A stretch of DNA of 64,000 nucleotides from a virus. The position numbers were made by a program, and so were the translations under genes. Shown here in pieces: positions 38,956-60,821 of the stretch; position 1 is the first letter of the stretch; every line of letters begins with the position of its first letter. The DNA lies in IMG/VR virus record IMGVR_UViG_3300048694_001005, positions 116,566-180,565 of that record; one strand, written 5' to 3'. The notes under the pieces are model-generated. The model was not told the DNA's origin, made no database searches, and saw only the letters and a list, made by a program, of their open reading frames with translations.

Positions 38956-38988
38956 GACCCCAGAAGCCCAAAGCGACTGGGGTTTTTC
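38956..38988 (+). terminator. Terminator, copy 1
   Basis: CCCCAG pairs with CTGGGG around a loop containing AAGCCCAAAGCGA, followed by TTTTT. A sister element is at 46079-46110. Confidence 0.75.
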
Positions 38989-38998
38989 ATTGCTGTAT

Positions 38999-39060
38999 GT
39001 GTGGCGCAACGCGGGCGCGGCAGGCACATTAAACATCTGTAAAAAGGGCGGCCTGGTGGA
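38999..39060 (+). ncRNA. Covarying RNA element, copy 1
   Basis: Shares GTGTGGCGCAACG, a 13-nt hairpin loop of the form GCACNNTAAACAT, and GGGCGGCCT with 46122-46182. The hairpin stem differs but stays paired: GCAG/CTGT here, AGTGG/CCACT in copy 2. Compensatory change supports a conserved RNA structure of unknown function. Confidence 0.55.
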
Positions 39061-39105
39061 TGAACTCCCTCTTGTGGGACGAAAAATACCAGCGTAATAT
39101 TTTGT

Positions 39106-39182: not shown

Positions 39183-39202
39183 AAATGTTAAGTGTTATTT
39201 GT

Positions 39203-39289
39203 TCCGGAGTACCCGAGTTGGTAGCAGGGGGCAGACTGTTAATCTGTTGCGCGGAAGCGCCATCGCTGGTTCGAGCCCAGCCTCCGGAG
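39203..39289 (+). tRNA. tRNA-Asn (GUU) with class II extra arm
   Basis: Acceptor TCCGGAG/CTCCGGA, anticodon loop CTGTTAA and G73 are Asn-like. The variable region is 17 nt with a GCGC/GCGC hairpin, and the D-arm and anticodon stem resemble tRNA-Tyr. No CCA is encoded (CAA follows). Confidence 0.8.
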
Positions 39290-39303
39290 CAAATAACATT
39301 TAT

Positions 39304-46078: not shown

Positions 46079-46110
46079 ACCCCGAAGATCCCAAAGACTT
46101 CGGGGTTTTT
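46079..46110 (+). terminator. Terminator, copy 2
   Basis: Perfect stem CCCCGAAG/CTTCGGGG with loop ATCCCAAAGA, then TTTTT. The loop resembles that of copy 1. Confidence 0.88.
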
Positions 46111-46121
46111 CATTGTAGTTA

Positions 46122-46182
46122 GTGTGGCGCAACGAGGGCGCAGTGGGCACTATAAACATCCACTAAACGGGCGGCCTTGGTG
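46122..46182 (+). ncRNA. Covarying RNA element, copy 2
   Basis: See copy 1 at 38999. Conserved single-stranded blocks with a compensated stem AGTGG/CCACT. Confidence 0.55.
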
Positions 46183-46220
46183 ATCAACGTGCGGCGATAA
46201 CGCATTAGTAAAACCCAAGC

Positions 46221-46293
46221 GTAATAAAGTAGATTCTTTAAGGTCTGGCCGTTACCAGCCTGGCAAAAACGGCGACAGAATCTACTTTATTAC
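46221..46293 (+). repeat. 17-bp perfect inverted repeat with structured loop
   Basis: Arms 46221-46237 and 46277-46293 are exact reverse complements. The 39-nt interior contains GCCGTT/AACGGC and a TGGCC segment. There is no T-run. It resembles the sealed tRNA-like elements near 60 kb. Confidence 0.85.
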
Positions 46294-46351
46294 ACACATT
46301 CTGGAACCAAATGGGAGTGAAATGTCCGTGGCGGAGTGTGTTAAACAATAT

Positions 46352-47274: not shown

Positions 47275-47282
47275 TATTTATA
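47275..47282 (-). promoter_or_regulatory. Late promoter for minus-strand endonuclease
   Basis: Reverse complement reads TATAAATA, about 90 nt upstream of the ATG at 47184. Confidence 0.65.
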
Positions 47283-47289
47283 CCAGTTA

Positions 47290-47770
47290 AATATCGGCTC
47301 AGTGATCGTGCGCAAGCACACAGACGGAGGGACTGCTGGAGAAAGTGTCCTGGGCGTGATGCGCCCGTCGACCATTCGGGTCTAACTCCAAAGAGCGACC
47401 ATTGTCGCAATACCCTGTTGCCAGTAATGGCTAACAAATGAAAAGCGTCCTAAAACGATCGGCGGGGCAAAACTTGCGACATAAAAATTAAGCCAAATGG
47501 CTACGGAATAGCGGTCAGCGCCAAGAGAGAACGTGAGCCACCCAGTGGGATGGGAGTTGAAGGCTCTTGGGACTCAGCCCCGCCCCCAACAGGGCTAGAC
47601 GCCAGAGTTGAGTACGCGACGTGTGTCCGAGGTAAAGAATTATGGTTGCACACTGAGTGAAGATGCCTCCTCTGCGCGAGACAATCCAGTGAGTCCCCTT
47701 AGCGAGGGATAGCTGGGCGCCCAACTTTCAATGCCGGCGGTTTCGCGTGTAACTCCACGTGCCGGCTCCA
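47290..47770 (+). ncRNA. Candidate large structured RNA (~480 nt)
   Basis: No ORF of note and no tRNA, but many compact hairpins, several with GNRA-like loops: GTGC-GCAA-GCAC, GGGCG/CGCCC, GCGAC/GTCGC, GCCA-GTAA-TGGC, AGCC/GGCT. The end forms a minihelix, GCCGGC plus CGCGTG/CACGTG, finishing in TCCA. It lies directly before tRNA-Ile. Large ornate phage RNAs such as GOLLD and ROOL occur beside tRNA arrays, which makes this a fair hypothesis. I see no rRNA, tmRNA or RNase P signature. Strand assumed from the array. Confidence 0.45.
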
Positions 47771-48216: not shown

Positions 48217-48242
48217 AATTAAATAGTGCGATACGATTCAGT

Positions 48243-48329
48243 GAAGGGTCGGCGAAGATGGTGAGTGTCGCGGCGGTCTGTAAAACCGTTACTTAAGAAC
48301 CGTAGTTTGTTCGAATCAAACACCCTTCA
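48243..48329 (+). tRNA. tRNA-Tyr (GUA)
   Basis: Acceptor GAAGGGT/ACCCTTC, anticodon arm GCGGT-CTGTAAA-ACCGT, class II variable arm, T-arm GTTTG-TTCGAAT-CAAAC, A73; CCA not encoded. The minus-strand endonuclease stop codon lies in its T-arm. Confidence 0.85.
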
Positions 48330-49260
48330 CTGAGTCGTATTGATTTACCATAGAGATTAAATCTTCATATTTAATTGATGATTTAGATTTTTTTACTCCG
48401 TTGAGCCTGTGGGGCATTAATTCACAATTGCATGGATGTGAGATATAATAAGGATCATAATTATATTTGATGGCGTCTGATATAGATACTTTGTGATCCC
48501 TTGATAATCCATCAAGATTCCATCTGCCAGTTTTGCCCCCTGGAGCATAAAATCCTACCCTTTTTAAGAGCTCTATGTCGAATAAATCTGGATAATCATA
48601 AACGTTAAAGCAAAATCTATATTGCGATCGTTTATTTGAATGGAATTTCCGGCATGGGTTACAAAATTGCAACTGCGTTCTGGCTATGAATAATCCCTTG
48701 CAGTTTTTACAAGAGCAATAACAAATTTTGGAAAATGGACCAGATGGATTTACATTGATTCTTTTGATTCTACTTCTTCTATGTTTGTCGGCGCAACAAA
48801 GTTTCGCATCTTTTCTATTTAGATGTAATGATTTACATTTCCTGCATTTGAACGTTTTAGTTTTCTTATTGGATTTAGATTTTAAGGTTTGAGAAATCTT
48901 ACTTTTGGTTGTTTGGGTTACATTATACCCGTTCTCTATACGTTTTTTATTGGATATTTTGGCAGCACACTTATGTGAGCAAAATCGATTTTTTCTTTTT
49001 GAGTAGATTAAAACCTCACAACAATTTTCGCATTTTTTTGGAGATCTGCTATAATCGTTAATCCTTTGTGTTTGAGATTTTTCTAATTGGTTCTTACGAT
49101 TTAATATGGATTTTTGAGATCCTAATGAACGTTTAACCCTATTAAAGCCATCTTTTGTATGTGACGCTAGATAATGTGAGTGAATTCCTTTTGCAGATCT
49201 TACATCTTTACAAATTACGCAAGAGCAAAGTGCTGAAAAATAAATATGGTTGCTGGACAT
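48316..49260 (-). CDS. HNH-type homing endonuclease (HPxNC family), copy 2
   Basis: 314 residues from the ATG at 49260 (AAAGGA site). Several zinc fingers (CSCVICKDV..., CENCCEVL...CSHKCA, CRKCKSLH) precede the core GLSRDHKVSISDAI...HPCNCELMPHRLNGVKKSKSS, paralogous to the protein at 46510. Its C-terminus (YDSVKGV) is encoded within tRNA-Tyr. A minus-strand CTAAATA motif lies near 49335. Confidence 0.85.
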   Translation of the reverse strand: MSSNHIYFSALCSCVICKDVRSAKGIHSHYLASHTKDGFNRVKRSLGSQKSILNRKNQLEKSQTQRINDYSRSPKKCENCCEVLIYSKRKNRFCSHKCAAKISNKKRIENGYNVTQTTKSKISQTLKSKSNKKTKTFKCRKCKSLHLNRKDAKLCCADKHRRSRIKRINVNPSGPFSKICYCSCKNCKGLFIARTQLQFCNPCRKFHSNKRSQYRFCFNVYDYPDLFDIELLKRVGFYAPGGKTGRWNLDGLSRDHKVSISDAIKYNYDPYYISHPCNCELMPHRLNGVKKSKSSIKYEDLISMVNQYDSVKGV

Positions 49261-49901: not shown

Positions 49902-50024
49902 AGGATGCCTACAGCAATCAAATTGCCTTCTAAGCCGTGGACGGGGGTTCGATTCCCTCCGCTCTCCCCAATAATCTCTATGGAGAGTGTAGCTTAATGG
50001 TAAAGCACCGTAACGTGCATCCTG
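49902..50024 (+). tRNA. Possible circularly permuted tRNA-Arg (UCU) locus
   Basis: Order is 3' half then 5' half: anticodon-loop CTTCTAA (49927-49933), T-arm GGGGG-TTCGATT-CCCTC, CGCTCTC and CCCA. After 11 nt comes GGAGAGTG (49982), which pairs 8 of 8 with CGCTCTCC, and a D-arm GCTT/AAGC. Outer AGGATGC (49902) pairs with GCATCCT (50017). The 5' anticodon strand is not clear, so this is weaker than the case at 50870. Confidence 0.4.
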
Positions 50025-58153: not shown

Positions 58154-58424
58154 ATTTTCAACACTTGACTCCACGCGGGTTGCTGCAAGCAATCTGAGGA
58201 AGTTCAGGACAAGCGCCAGGAGCGTATGGGAGATTGGGGTGGGCAGCACAGCCGATAGGCATGCTAGCCGATAACAGACAACGCGGCCCTGATCATTAAC
58301 ACCAGCGTGATATAGCTTGCAAGCCAAACAGAATGTGATAACTCTTGGATTATACATTCGGGTAGGTGCATAGATGAATGTGGAGATAAAACAGAATCCT
58401 GGCTATGGAGTGTTGAAATCTTTT
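58154..58424. other. Gene-free structured segment
   Basis: No convincing ORF. Hairpins include TTGCT/AGCAA, CTGA/TCAG around GGAAGT, and GAATGT/ACATTC. The string GAGGAAGTTC faintly recalls RNase P CR-I, but the other conserved blocks are missing. Unassigned. Confidence 0.35.
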
Positions 58425-59747: not shown

Positions 59748-59837
59748 GCAGCTAGGTGGTGGTGAAGTAAAGCCTAGTCAGGACACAGAACGAGATAACT
59801 TCAAAGTTCGCACTGGTTTCGAATCCAGTCAGCTGCT
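59748..59837 (+). other. tRNA-like sequence, unresolved
   Basis: GCAGCTA/CAGCTGC pair 6 of 7, and a T-arm ACTGG/CCAGT holds a TTCGAAT loop. A CTTCAAA string with UCA in anticodon position is present, but no proper stem forms around it. First transcribed element after the promoter at 59702. Confidence 0.4.
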
Positions 59838-59839
59838 GA

Positions 59840-59850
59840 GCTCTTTAAAA
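59840..59850 (+). promoter_or_regulatory. boxA-like antitermination site 1
   Basis: GCTCTTTAAAA matches bacterial rRNA-leader boxA (core GCTCTTTAA). Confidence 0.6.
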
Positions 59851-59961
59851 ATTTGCGCCGATACCCATCGCGTTGTATTTGGGATCGCCCGGTGTCTTCC
59901 GGGAAGCAGGTAATAAGAAAACTAGGGATTGCGATTTCTAGTAGAAATAACTGTGGTGCAA
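59851..59961 (+). ncRNA. Hairpin-rich segment between boxA sites
   Basis: ATTTGCGCC pairs with GGTGCAAAT (one G-T), enclosing CCCGG-TGTCTT-CCGGG and further stems. It lies between the two boxA-like sites, like the spacer hairpins of rRNA leaders. Confidence 0.45.
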
Positions 59962-59962
59962 A

Positions 59963-59974
59963 TGCTCTTTAACA
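59963..59974 (+). promoter_or_regulatory. boxA-like antitermination site 2
   Basis: TGCTCTTTAACA is identical to the E. coli rrn boxA as I recall it, the NusB-S10 binding site. Confidence 0.7.
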
Positions 59975-59979
59975 ATACG

Positions 59980-60099
59980 GCGTTATTCACATGCACACAA
60001 ATGCGTAGGCCACGCAGATAGAGGTGGGATCTAGCTTTGCCCCGTGATTGGAGCAAGGTTGGCAGGTTCAAGTCCTGTGAGTGTGCAGTTGAATAATGC
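59980..60099 (+). other. Sealed tRNA-like element
   Basis: Arms 59980-59998 and 60081-60099 pair 17 of 19. Inside are TGCGT-AGGCC-ACGCA (D-like with GG), TAGA-GGTGGGA-TCTA, CTTTGC/GCAAGG (variable-arm-like) and a T-arm GCAGG-TTCAAGT-CCTGT. The acceptor runs straight into the arms and no CCA exists. Confidence 0.5.
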
Positions 60100-60106
60100 T
60101 GTGACT

Positions 60107-60212
60107 ATATTGAAACACATTAATGACAATTTAACGGGCAAGCAGTAATCATTCAATTGATTATTCCGTGTCATACCGAAGACTTGGTATAACGGTTAGT
60201 GTGTTTCAATAT
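60107..60212 (+). repeat. 16-bp inverted repeat enclosing structured RNA
   Basis: Arms 60107-60122 and 60196-60212 pair throughout (one G-T). Inside are TGACA/TGTCA with nested TAATCA/TGATTA and a TACC/GGTA hairpin. No T-loop of the TTC type. Confidence 0.6.
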
Positions 60213-60331
60213 GGCGATGGCAACAGCATGAGCGTGGTTCGATTCTCGAGATAAGAGCCCGGACATGCGTTGGCTCAAAAGAGGAAGTCATGAGCCTCTT
60301 GAGCCAAAGATATTGGTTCGATTCCAATTTG
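60213..60331 (+). other. tRNA-like element
   Basis: T-arm ATTGG-TTCGATT-CCAAT is followed by TTGCTGT, C and ACCA; ACAGCA at about 60227 pairs with TGCTGT. The middle holds a long hairpin TTGGCTCAA/TTGAGCCAA rather than a normal anticodon arm. Confidence 0.4.
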
Positions 60332-60453
60332 CTGTCACCATATTAAATCACATTGAGGTGAGTTACCGCAGAGACGGCCGTCTTTGTAGTTGGCGCGATC
60401 CAACTTGGTTCCCTGGGTTCGATCCCCAGCAGTGTGATTTAATATGGTGACAG
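60332..60453 (+). other. Sealed tRNA-like element (24-bp inverted repeat)
   Basis: Arms 60332-60355 and 60430-60453 pair over 24 positions (one G-T). Inside are AGAGAC-GGCC-GTCTTT, GTTGG-CGCGAT-CCAAC and a perfect T-arm CTGGG-TTCGATC-CCCAG. CACATTG/CAGTGTG forms the acceptor end. No CCA. Confidence 0.55.
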
Positions 60454-60459
60454 AATTAT

Positions 60460-60537
60460 GCGGGTGGACAGGACAAGGGGCGTCCAGCGGATTTCCAATC
60501 CGCAGATCGCGGAGTTCAACTCTCCCCACCCGCTCCA
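60460..60537 (+). tRNA. tRNA-Gly (UCC)
   Basis: Acceptor GCGGGTG/CACCCGC, anticodon arm GCGGA-TTTCCAA-TCCGC, T-loop TTCAACT, U73, CCA. Confidence 0.9.
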
Positions 60538-60543
60538 GAACAT

Positions 60544-60613
60544 GAGTCGAGGGTAGTGGCCTCAACACGTTGCCTAGGGTAGTTCACTGCTACCCAAAAC
60601 AGCGTGGACTCCC
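60544..60613 (+). ncRNA. Three-way-junction RNA element
   Basis: GAGTC/GACTC closes two branches: GAGG-GTAGTGG-CCTC, and CACGTTG/CAGCGTG leading to GGGTAG-TTCACTG-CTACCC. The terminal loop could mimic a CAC (Val) anticodon loop, but no T-arm or CCA exists. Confidence 0.45.
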
Positions 60614-60621
60614 GATTATTT

Positions 60622-60707
60622 GCCTGGGTGGTGGAACGGTATACACAACGGACTTAAAATCCGTCGCCTTTACGGGCTTGAGGGTTCGAATCCCTCCCCA
60701 GGCACCA
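60622..60707 (+). tRNA. tRNA-Leu (UAA)
   Basis: Acceptor GCCTGGG/CCCAGGC, anticodon arm ACGGA-CTTAAAA-TCCGT, long variable arm, T-loop TTCGAAT, A73, CCA. Confidence 0.93.
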
Positions 60708-60807
60708 TATTGAAACGTATTCAAAGACTGTGGCCACAGTCCAGCTGGCAGCAGGGTTCAGATATCTGACACGTTGGGTTCGATTCCCAGAGTATGTTTC
60801 AATATGG
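60705..60807 (+). other. Sealed tRNA-like element (18-bp inverted repeat)
   Basis: Arms 60705-60722 and 60790-60807 pair over 18 positions with two G-T. Inside are GACTGT-GGCC-ACAGTC and a T-arm TTGGG-TTCGATT-CCCAG. The left arm begins with the CCA of the preceding tRNA-Leu. Confidence 0.55.
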
Positions 60808-60821
60808 TAACAAATGAATTT

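Follow-up and report, generated by a model that had tools for sequence, protein, structure and literature searches.

The tRNA arrays of large phages hold, besides tRNAs, more than 100 different small structured RNAs that share a common terminal helix (the clamp), have exchangeable insides and are absent from Rfam. These predicted clamp RNAs are a large undescribed superfamily: no known family of tRNA spacers joins a single conserved terminal clamp to a multitude of structured interiors that are unrelated to each other and exchangeable. Judging from sequence comparison, the sealed elements described below are probably small structured non-coding RNAs of phage tRNA-operon spacers, which are excised, protected by the clamp and equipped with a variable working module. 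Provided that they are stable, they constitute a new class of non-coding viral RNA that conflict with the host has probably shaped, and they touch on the long-standing question of why phages carry long tRNA arrays. The clamp itself is a direct handle for finding more such RNAs.

The window (the whole stretch of DNA analysed, 64,000 nucleotides) makes up the final 64 kb of a virus record of 180,565 bp. The DNA polymerase of the record is of the T4/jumbo-phage type, the nearest being those of Sinorhizobium phage Phosso and Agrobacterium phage Atu_ph07 (46-49% identity). ARAGORN locates 36 tRNAs between 39 and 63 kb of the window. Ungapped terminal helices were scored around 50-160 nt with a cut-off of at least 37. 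Eight helices reach this score in the 38.5-64 kb part, against a mean of 0.1 in 20 dinucleotide shuffles, and none does so in the first 38.5 kb. They correspond to elements A, B, C, D and E, tRNA-Asn at 39203, tRNA-Tyr at 48243 (Table 1), and one alternative pairing, in which the left arm of element C can pair with the right arm of element B.

Table 1. Features of the window and related loci (window coordinates unless a locus is named)
Feature	Position	Strand	Description
Sealed tRNA-Asn(GTT)	39189..39302	+	body 39203-39290; 14-bp extension; GCAA instead of GCCA; the record's only Asn tRNA
Sealed hairpin S	46221..46294	+	perfect 17-bp helix GTAATAAAGTAGATTCT/AGAATCTACTTTATTAC; 40-nt interior with GGCC; no T-arm; z -3.7 (67-nt stretch)
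Sealed tRNA-Tyr(GTA)	48229..48342	+	ordinary body; 14-bp extension; no CCA; the record's only Tyr tRNA
AGG-motif copy	49902-50023
AGG-motif copy	50870-50978		permuted tRNA-like gene
Sealed element E	52620..52721	+	helix AACCATAATAGAG/CTCTACTATGGTT (22 positions) from CCA of tRNA-Lys(CTT); canonical D-loop; T-arm; no 7-nt anticodon loop
AGG-motif copy	56081-56135
rrn-type boxA	59964..59977	+	GCTCTTTAACAAT, directly before element A
Sealed element A	59976..60103	+	clamp helix; 7-bp acceptor-like stem; D-like arm (loop AGGCC); hairpin; extra arm; T-arm; no CCA; relatives in L201, L167, L080, L240, L198, L193, L212, L116, L227, L187, L230
Sealed element B	60097..60222	+	clamp CTATATTGAAACACA/TGTGTTTCAATATGG; three-hairpin interior; no T-arm
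Odd tRNA-like unit	60213..60341	+	GATGGCA...TGCTGTC-A-CCA; long extra hairpin; T-arm; between elements B and C; sequence reading
Sealed element C	60332..60453	+	24 consecutive pairs in terminal helix including CCATATTAAATCACA/TGTGATTTAATATGG; GGCC hairpin; T-arm; z -8.5
Sealed element D	60704..60808	+	clamp ACCATATTGAAAC/GTTTCAATATGGT (19 pairs) from ACCA of tRNA-Leu(TAA); GGCC hairpin; T-arm
AGG-motif copies	L248:5671-5730; L248:6012-6102		phage DLP_6
Permuted tRNA-like genes	L137:10530-10643; L095:1646-1763; L116:9262-9374; others

The first-pass annotation of this DNA had described acceptor-like helices that run into long inverted repeats, and long terminal helices do close all six sealed elements (A to E and hairpin S). 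They fold far better than shuffled sequences (MFE z-scores from -3.7 to -8.5). It had further claimed that the elements encode no CCA and lack a normal anticodon loop; on reading the sequence, none of the six has a CCA after the right arm, and none contains an anticodon-like 7-nt loop. A T-arm (TTCRANT with a paired stem) and a D-like hairpin with GG or GGCC were said to be present in most, and elements A, C, D and E have both, while B and S have no T-arm. Left arms were said to begin often in the preceding CCA, as they do in or next to the CCA of a tRNA-like gene for C, D and E. A locus at 59748 turned out not to be sealed, as its acceptor has only 6 bp and its folding energy is ordinary (z 0.06), and the sealed tRNA-Asn and tRNA-Tyr had been overlooked.

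Elements A to E were called neither by ARAGORN nor by the Rfam tRNA model at gathering score. The sealed elements also lack the CCA of canonical tRNAs, which about 97% of the unsealed tRNAs in these arrays encode. Rfam 15 gave no gathering-level family match for sealed or clamp elements in the window and 13 further loci. The full clamp core (YCATAT-nn-AA / TT-nn-ATATGR beside a tRNA, with a covarying helix) is present in C and D, and in B with one base changed; A, E and S are placed in the superfamily by interior homology or sealing only. Element B has a close relative in locus L203 (nhmmer E 6.8e-16), and hairpin S a homologue at L207:2238-2300, adjoining a clamp RNA. The clamp of element C is opened by the CCA of the odd tRNA-like unit upstream, which ARAGORN does not call.

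Other phage tRNA arrays were brought in by another motif of the window (the AGG motif, described below), and scanning of these arrays revealed the same arms. The pattern CCATATnnAAA...TTTnnATATGG matched at least 119 stretches. Oriented by tRNA strand, at least 143 unique clamp elements, at least 126 of them with non-redundant interiors, occur at 77 or more loci; the sample consists of metagenomic contigs, possibly fragments, and the counts are inflated by phage relatedness. The helix CCAUAUnnAAACACA / UGUGUUUnnAUAUGG closes all 126 non-redundant RNAs listed. Detection used fixed core bases, so positions 2-6 and 9-10 were set by the search and the remaining ones are informative. Among the matches listed, position 7 is occupied by A-T (66), T-A (46), G-C (8) and C-G (5) pairs, and position 15 by A-T (103) and T-A (17). 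Pair changes on both sides exceed those in shuffles, an excess that is partly biased since detection required pairing. As the first detection had rewarded pairing, it was rerun with G-U and A-C scored alike, which makes the scoring strand-symmetric. On the tRNA-sense strand, the nine positions inward of the conserved mismatch then held 147 G-U against 3 A-C combinations. Such asymmetry is expected of RNA and suggests that the helix is formed by the transcript. The mismatch itself, a recurrent A-C two steps after CATAT, is present in 69 of 159 cases. Taken as comparative evidence, these data show that the predicted clamp helix is conserved and covaries at the RNA level. The first-pass annotation had made its proposal depend on the arms being conserved as helices in relatives, and when this was checked they did covary as helices.

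BLAST of element C, a B-like element, an L164-like element and the bare clamp against cultured phages produced no real match, BLAST being weak for short paired arms; a match in Sinorhizobium phage Phosso falls in a coding gene. In 84,980 bacterial and archaeal genomes the clamp pattern had three matches, all perfect palindromic pairs. We found no description of such RNAs in the open-licence literature (subscription journals and preprints lay outside the scope of this search).

In 71 of the 126 RNAs listed (those with an ARAGORN tRNA), the clamp opens with the CCA of the tRNA before it as bases one to three, most often Lys-UUU (39), followed by Glu-UUC (8), Gln-UUG (7) and Leu-UAG (4). Lys-UUU thus opens 39 of 71 clamps and makes up about 4% of the tRNAs in the same loci, an enrichment inflated by phage relatedness. 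The base before the clamp is A or G in 122 of the 126. In 23 listed cases the next tRNA, mostly tRNA-Met, starts two bases before the clamp end, C74-C75-A76 pairs with U-1 G1 G2, and the whole tRNA-tRNA spacer is the clamp RNA.

The sequence in front of element A is an rrn-type boxA antitermination sequence, and a second boxA-like sequence, GCTCTTTAAAAAT, is located at window position 59840. The boxA pattern GCTCTTTAA[AC]A occurs ten times in tRNA sense and never in antisense, often just before tRNAs or structured RNAs; besides the window, it was found in loci L109, L139, L207, L212, L069, L075, L078 and L094. In the CCATAT type, the helix spans the stretch between C74-C75-A76 of the upstream tRNA and the start of the unit that follows, in many cases U-1 G1 G2 of tRNA-Met. 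We envisage that the tRNA operon would be read through with boxA-type antitermination. The spacer RNA might then be freed by RNase P at the downstream tRNA, by tRNA 3' processing and/or by an RNase III-type host enzyme that cuts double strands; its duplexed ends would guard it against exonucleases, and the interior module would act on a host target. A search of 19 records turned up no RNase III of phage origin, which would leave the processing to host enzymes. A link to RNA repair was set aside, as no RtcB was found in the record itself. One expectation counts against this model: a clamp that partly seals both the CCA upstream and the 5' end of the following tRNA should slow the maturation of those tRNAs. 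Pairing of the leader with the 3' RCCA does slow RNase P (PMC9433436), and the clamp may therefore also time the maturation of its neighbours.

The same pairing, together with the exact span of the helix from the upstream CCA to the downstream 5' end, the boxA preceding element A and the presence of the same seal on ordinary tRNAs, would also agree with the long helices being mere processing stalks, like those around 16S and 23S rRNA, that mature the neighbour tRNAs and enclose filler. Both kinds of helix surround an RNA in a tRNA- or rRNA-type operon with boxA upstream. However, rrn stalks enclose rRNA while clamp helices enclose small variable RNAs, for which RNase III cleavage is only inferred here, and these interiors are structured, covary and fall into families that recur across contexts. 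We consider a mere stalk improbable. The suggestion of the first-pass annotation that the elements are processing signals is thus plausible as far as the helix and its boxA are concerned, but it is not the whole story, as the interiors are conserved structures.

Among the clamp RNAs listed, the interiors sort into 27 families and 66 singletons. Family A, which includes element A, combines an acceptor-like stem, a D-like arm, an extra arm and a T-arm. Both sides have changed in 23 of its 31 pairs, and 91% of the cells are paired. Its covariation score is 0.62, against 0.26 for shuffled sequences and at most 0.18 with slid partners, the slid control favouring the structure because it was derived from the same sequences. 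The family A model finds three members outside the training set (in L227, L187 and L230) with 80-91 bits. Elements C and D match it weakly (44.7 bits, E 8.6e-6, and 33.5 bits, E 0.0019, respectively), part of these scores coming from the clamp pairs that the elements have in common with the model. Two families without any T-loop covary as well. The proposal of a new RNA class, made in the first-pass annotation as one of several options, is well supported: arms and interiors covary in relatives, and no Rfam 15 family matches.

The interiors are also exchanged. In related arrays, flanking sequences can have 72-97% identity, and upstream flanks can be 94-97% identical while the interiors they adjoin have an identity of about 0.53-0.57, the level of unrelated interiors. 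L091 and L170, for example, are identical at 0.97 upstream, 0.72 downstream and 0.53 inside, and L186 and L226 at 0.81, 0.83 and 0.56. Conversely, near-identical interiors (0.91) occur in different tRNA contexts, after Gln in L135 and after Lys in L184. This mismatch between flanks and interiors suggests that interiors move or get replaced independently of their surroundings while the clamp is kept. The alignments show that the predicted interiors have structures of their own, keep them within families and are swapped as cassettes.

Conserved ends, a variable middle beside tRNA genes and interior exchange are also what could be expected of DNA sites, such as the ends of mobile elements or integron-like recombination sites. 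The arms covary within elements and their wobble pairs are strand-specific, although such a bias could equally arise from single-stranded DNA that folds on itself; the interiors fold and covary as RNA. No tyrosine recombinase (PF00589), the cognate enzyme looked for in the case of integron attC sites or mobile element ends, was found in 19 records. A mobile element or recombination site was set aside on the arm covariation, the strand-specific wobble and the missing tyrosine recombinase, and we regard DNA sites as very improbable.

The T-loop motif TTCRA is present in 34 of the 126 interiors listed, and the stricter GTTCRANTC in 21 of 126 (0.26 in mononucleotide shuffles), so no single tRNA-mimic function covers the superfamily. 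For the tRNA-like families, with a D-loop and a T-loop and neither an anticodon loop nor CCA, the leading candidate role would be that of a decoy or sponge, tying up the host proteins by which the tRNA elbow or acceptor is recognised; we hold this tentatively and at rather less than an even chance. As defences that target tRNAs have by now proved to be common (PMC11555353, PMC12851939), tRNA mimics are worth considering as decoys. Clamp RNAs at large might titrate anticodon nucleases of the host, or further defence enzymes directed at tRNAs; the presence of tRNA-like D and T arms in the absence of CCA and anticodon, and the fast, arms-race-like turnover of interiors, are consistent with this. 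So are other RNAs of the same arrays, which carry the AGG...CCU motif: hairpins with 7-nt loops occur in 51 of 107 of them against 4 expected (some of these loops being T-loops), and UUU and GUA are the commonest of the true anticodon loops among them. PrrC170, PARIS and retron-Eco7 are known to target tRNA-Lys-UUU and tRNA-Tyr (PMC11555353, PMC12409363). But the sealed elements of the window offer no anticodon loop to cut, about three quarters of the listed clamp RNAs have no T-loop, and in five records the sealed tRNAs with real anticodons have no second gene of their kind beside them. A role as decoys for anticodon nucleases, as put forward in the first-pass annotation, is thus plausible at most, and for clamp RNAs in general we rate it as rather unlikely.

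The AGG...CCU RNAs, which display anticodon stem-loops, fit the decoy idea better than clamp RNAs do. Their motif, TTTAGGnnnnCYaCAGCAA...n'n'n'n'CCTGT, has a covarying closing helix and was found in 107 copies at 48 loci, 106 of them on the tRNA strand; it has no Rfam match. The inserts are anticodon stem-loops, T-arms or elbow pieces. Among our BLAST queries, this motif alone led to a cultured phage, Stenotrophomonas phage DLP_6. Some of these RNAs contain circularly permuted tRNA-like genes, as 12 of the 55 longer inserts give an ARAGORN tRNA only when doubled (0 of 55 undoubled inserts and 0 of 165 shuffles). In the portion of the review drawn on here (PMC3978253), permuted tRNAs are named from algae, a nucleomorph and an archaeon, and none from bacteria or phages.

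Sealing is not confined to non-canonical elements. Among 1796 tRNAs the acceptor extension is bimodal: 1768 score 5 or less and 28 score 9 or more. CCA is encoded by 1722 of the 1768 unsealed tRNAs versus 3 of the 28 sealed ones, which include 17 His-GTG, 4 Asn-GTT and 2 Pro-TGG. Sealed Asn, Tyr and His genes are present also in L095, L103, L116, L080, L170 and other loci. In each of five whole or nearly whole phage records, the sealed tRNA is the sole gene for its amino acid, which argues against a pure decoy role and for functional tRNAs that mature in an unusual way; a simple reading of sealed tRNAs as decoys is set back by this. For this subset (Asn, Tyr, His and a few more ordinary tRNAs that carry a seal), as distinct from clamp RNAs, we see an even chance that they are working tRNAs with an alternative maturation, cut from a long duplex and given their CCA afterwards. 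The bimodal extension, the mostly missing CCA and the sole copies all agree with that, while records may be fragments and an unsealed copy could lie outside them. The His, Asn and Pro set overlaps the tRNAs with detected PARIS AriB cleavage products (PMC12409363); we place no weight on the overlap.

We speculate that the tRNA operons of large phages could carry a modular RNA arsenal, in which a shared, enzyme-readable clamp lets dozens of unrelated structured RNAs be excised and swapped from phage to phage, among them tRNA mimics disarming host tRNA-acting enzymes. We put this forward as a possibility with rather less than an even chance. Phage tRNAs that counter tRNA-cutting defence are similar in their location in phage tRNA arrays and in that some anticodons match known targets, but they are ordinary chargeable tRNAs which replace cleaved ones, unlike clamp RNAs (PMC11555353, PMC10264068).

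The best precedent for clamp RNAs is T4 species 1 RNA (rnaC), a stable non-tRNA RNA in a phage tRNA operon with a T-arm near its 3' end (CCGGG-TTCGAAT-CCCGG), no CCA and partly paired ends. It differs in having no CCATAT clamp and a short end helix, and in being a single RNA; to our knowledge, no cassette exchange is known for it. The family A model has no hit in the T4 tRNA cluster (L253), giving no indication of homology to species 1 RNA. Clamp RNAs could be filed under T4 species 1/2 if that precedent is taken to cover all non-tRNA RNAs of phage tRNA operons.

Bacterial Y RNAs of the YrlA type (RF02553) combine a stem made from both ends with a tRNA-like module. Clamp RNAs are alike in plan, but their modules vary far more. 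Weak YrlA matches occur in the array, and the shared architecture could mean that the elements are Y RNAs bound by Ro60 through the tRNA-like module. Yet these matches lie mainly across ordinary tRNAs, with none on the elements in 59748-60807. The YrlA covariance model produced no gathering-level match; one sub-threshold hit (24.0 bits, gathering 69) overlaps 52620-52721. A Ro60/TROVE gene was found neither in the record nor in 23 relatives (records possibly incomplete), while the control search found that of Deinobacterium. Y RNA identity was set aside on the missing Ro60 gene and the lack of a model match on the elements in 59748-60807, and we give it hardly any credence.

GOLLD RNA (RF02032) is likewise a structured RNA of phage tRNA arrays, and locus L203 has both GOLLD and a clamp RNA, but GOLLD is one large family (model of 416 positions) whereas clamp RNAs are diverse and 70-130 nt long. 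In L203 (120-579 and 6278-6629), the GOLLD RNA encloses a tRNA, and the array also holds a permuted tmRNA of the beta type.

Several other features were noted in the tRNA-rich part of the window. A sequence resembling RNase P RNA (58158-58416) lies between tRNA-Pro and tRNA-Leu, with the cores GAGGAAGUUC and ACAGAAUCCUGGCUA; it scores 39.6 bits with the archaeal model, below gathering, and has relatives in L200, L210, L156 and L248:6872-7094 (DLP_6). About 490 nt before tRNA-Ile (47280-47770) are non-coding and look structured, with weak similarity to four other arrays and no Rfam match. A 108-nt direct repeat (74% identical) occupies 38958-39065 and 46081-46188, each copy upstream of a stretch of tRNAs or non-coding RNAs. 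A gene for a small release-factor-like protein with RF-1 and PCRF domains is located within the tRNA array at 56487-57008.
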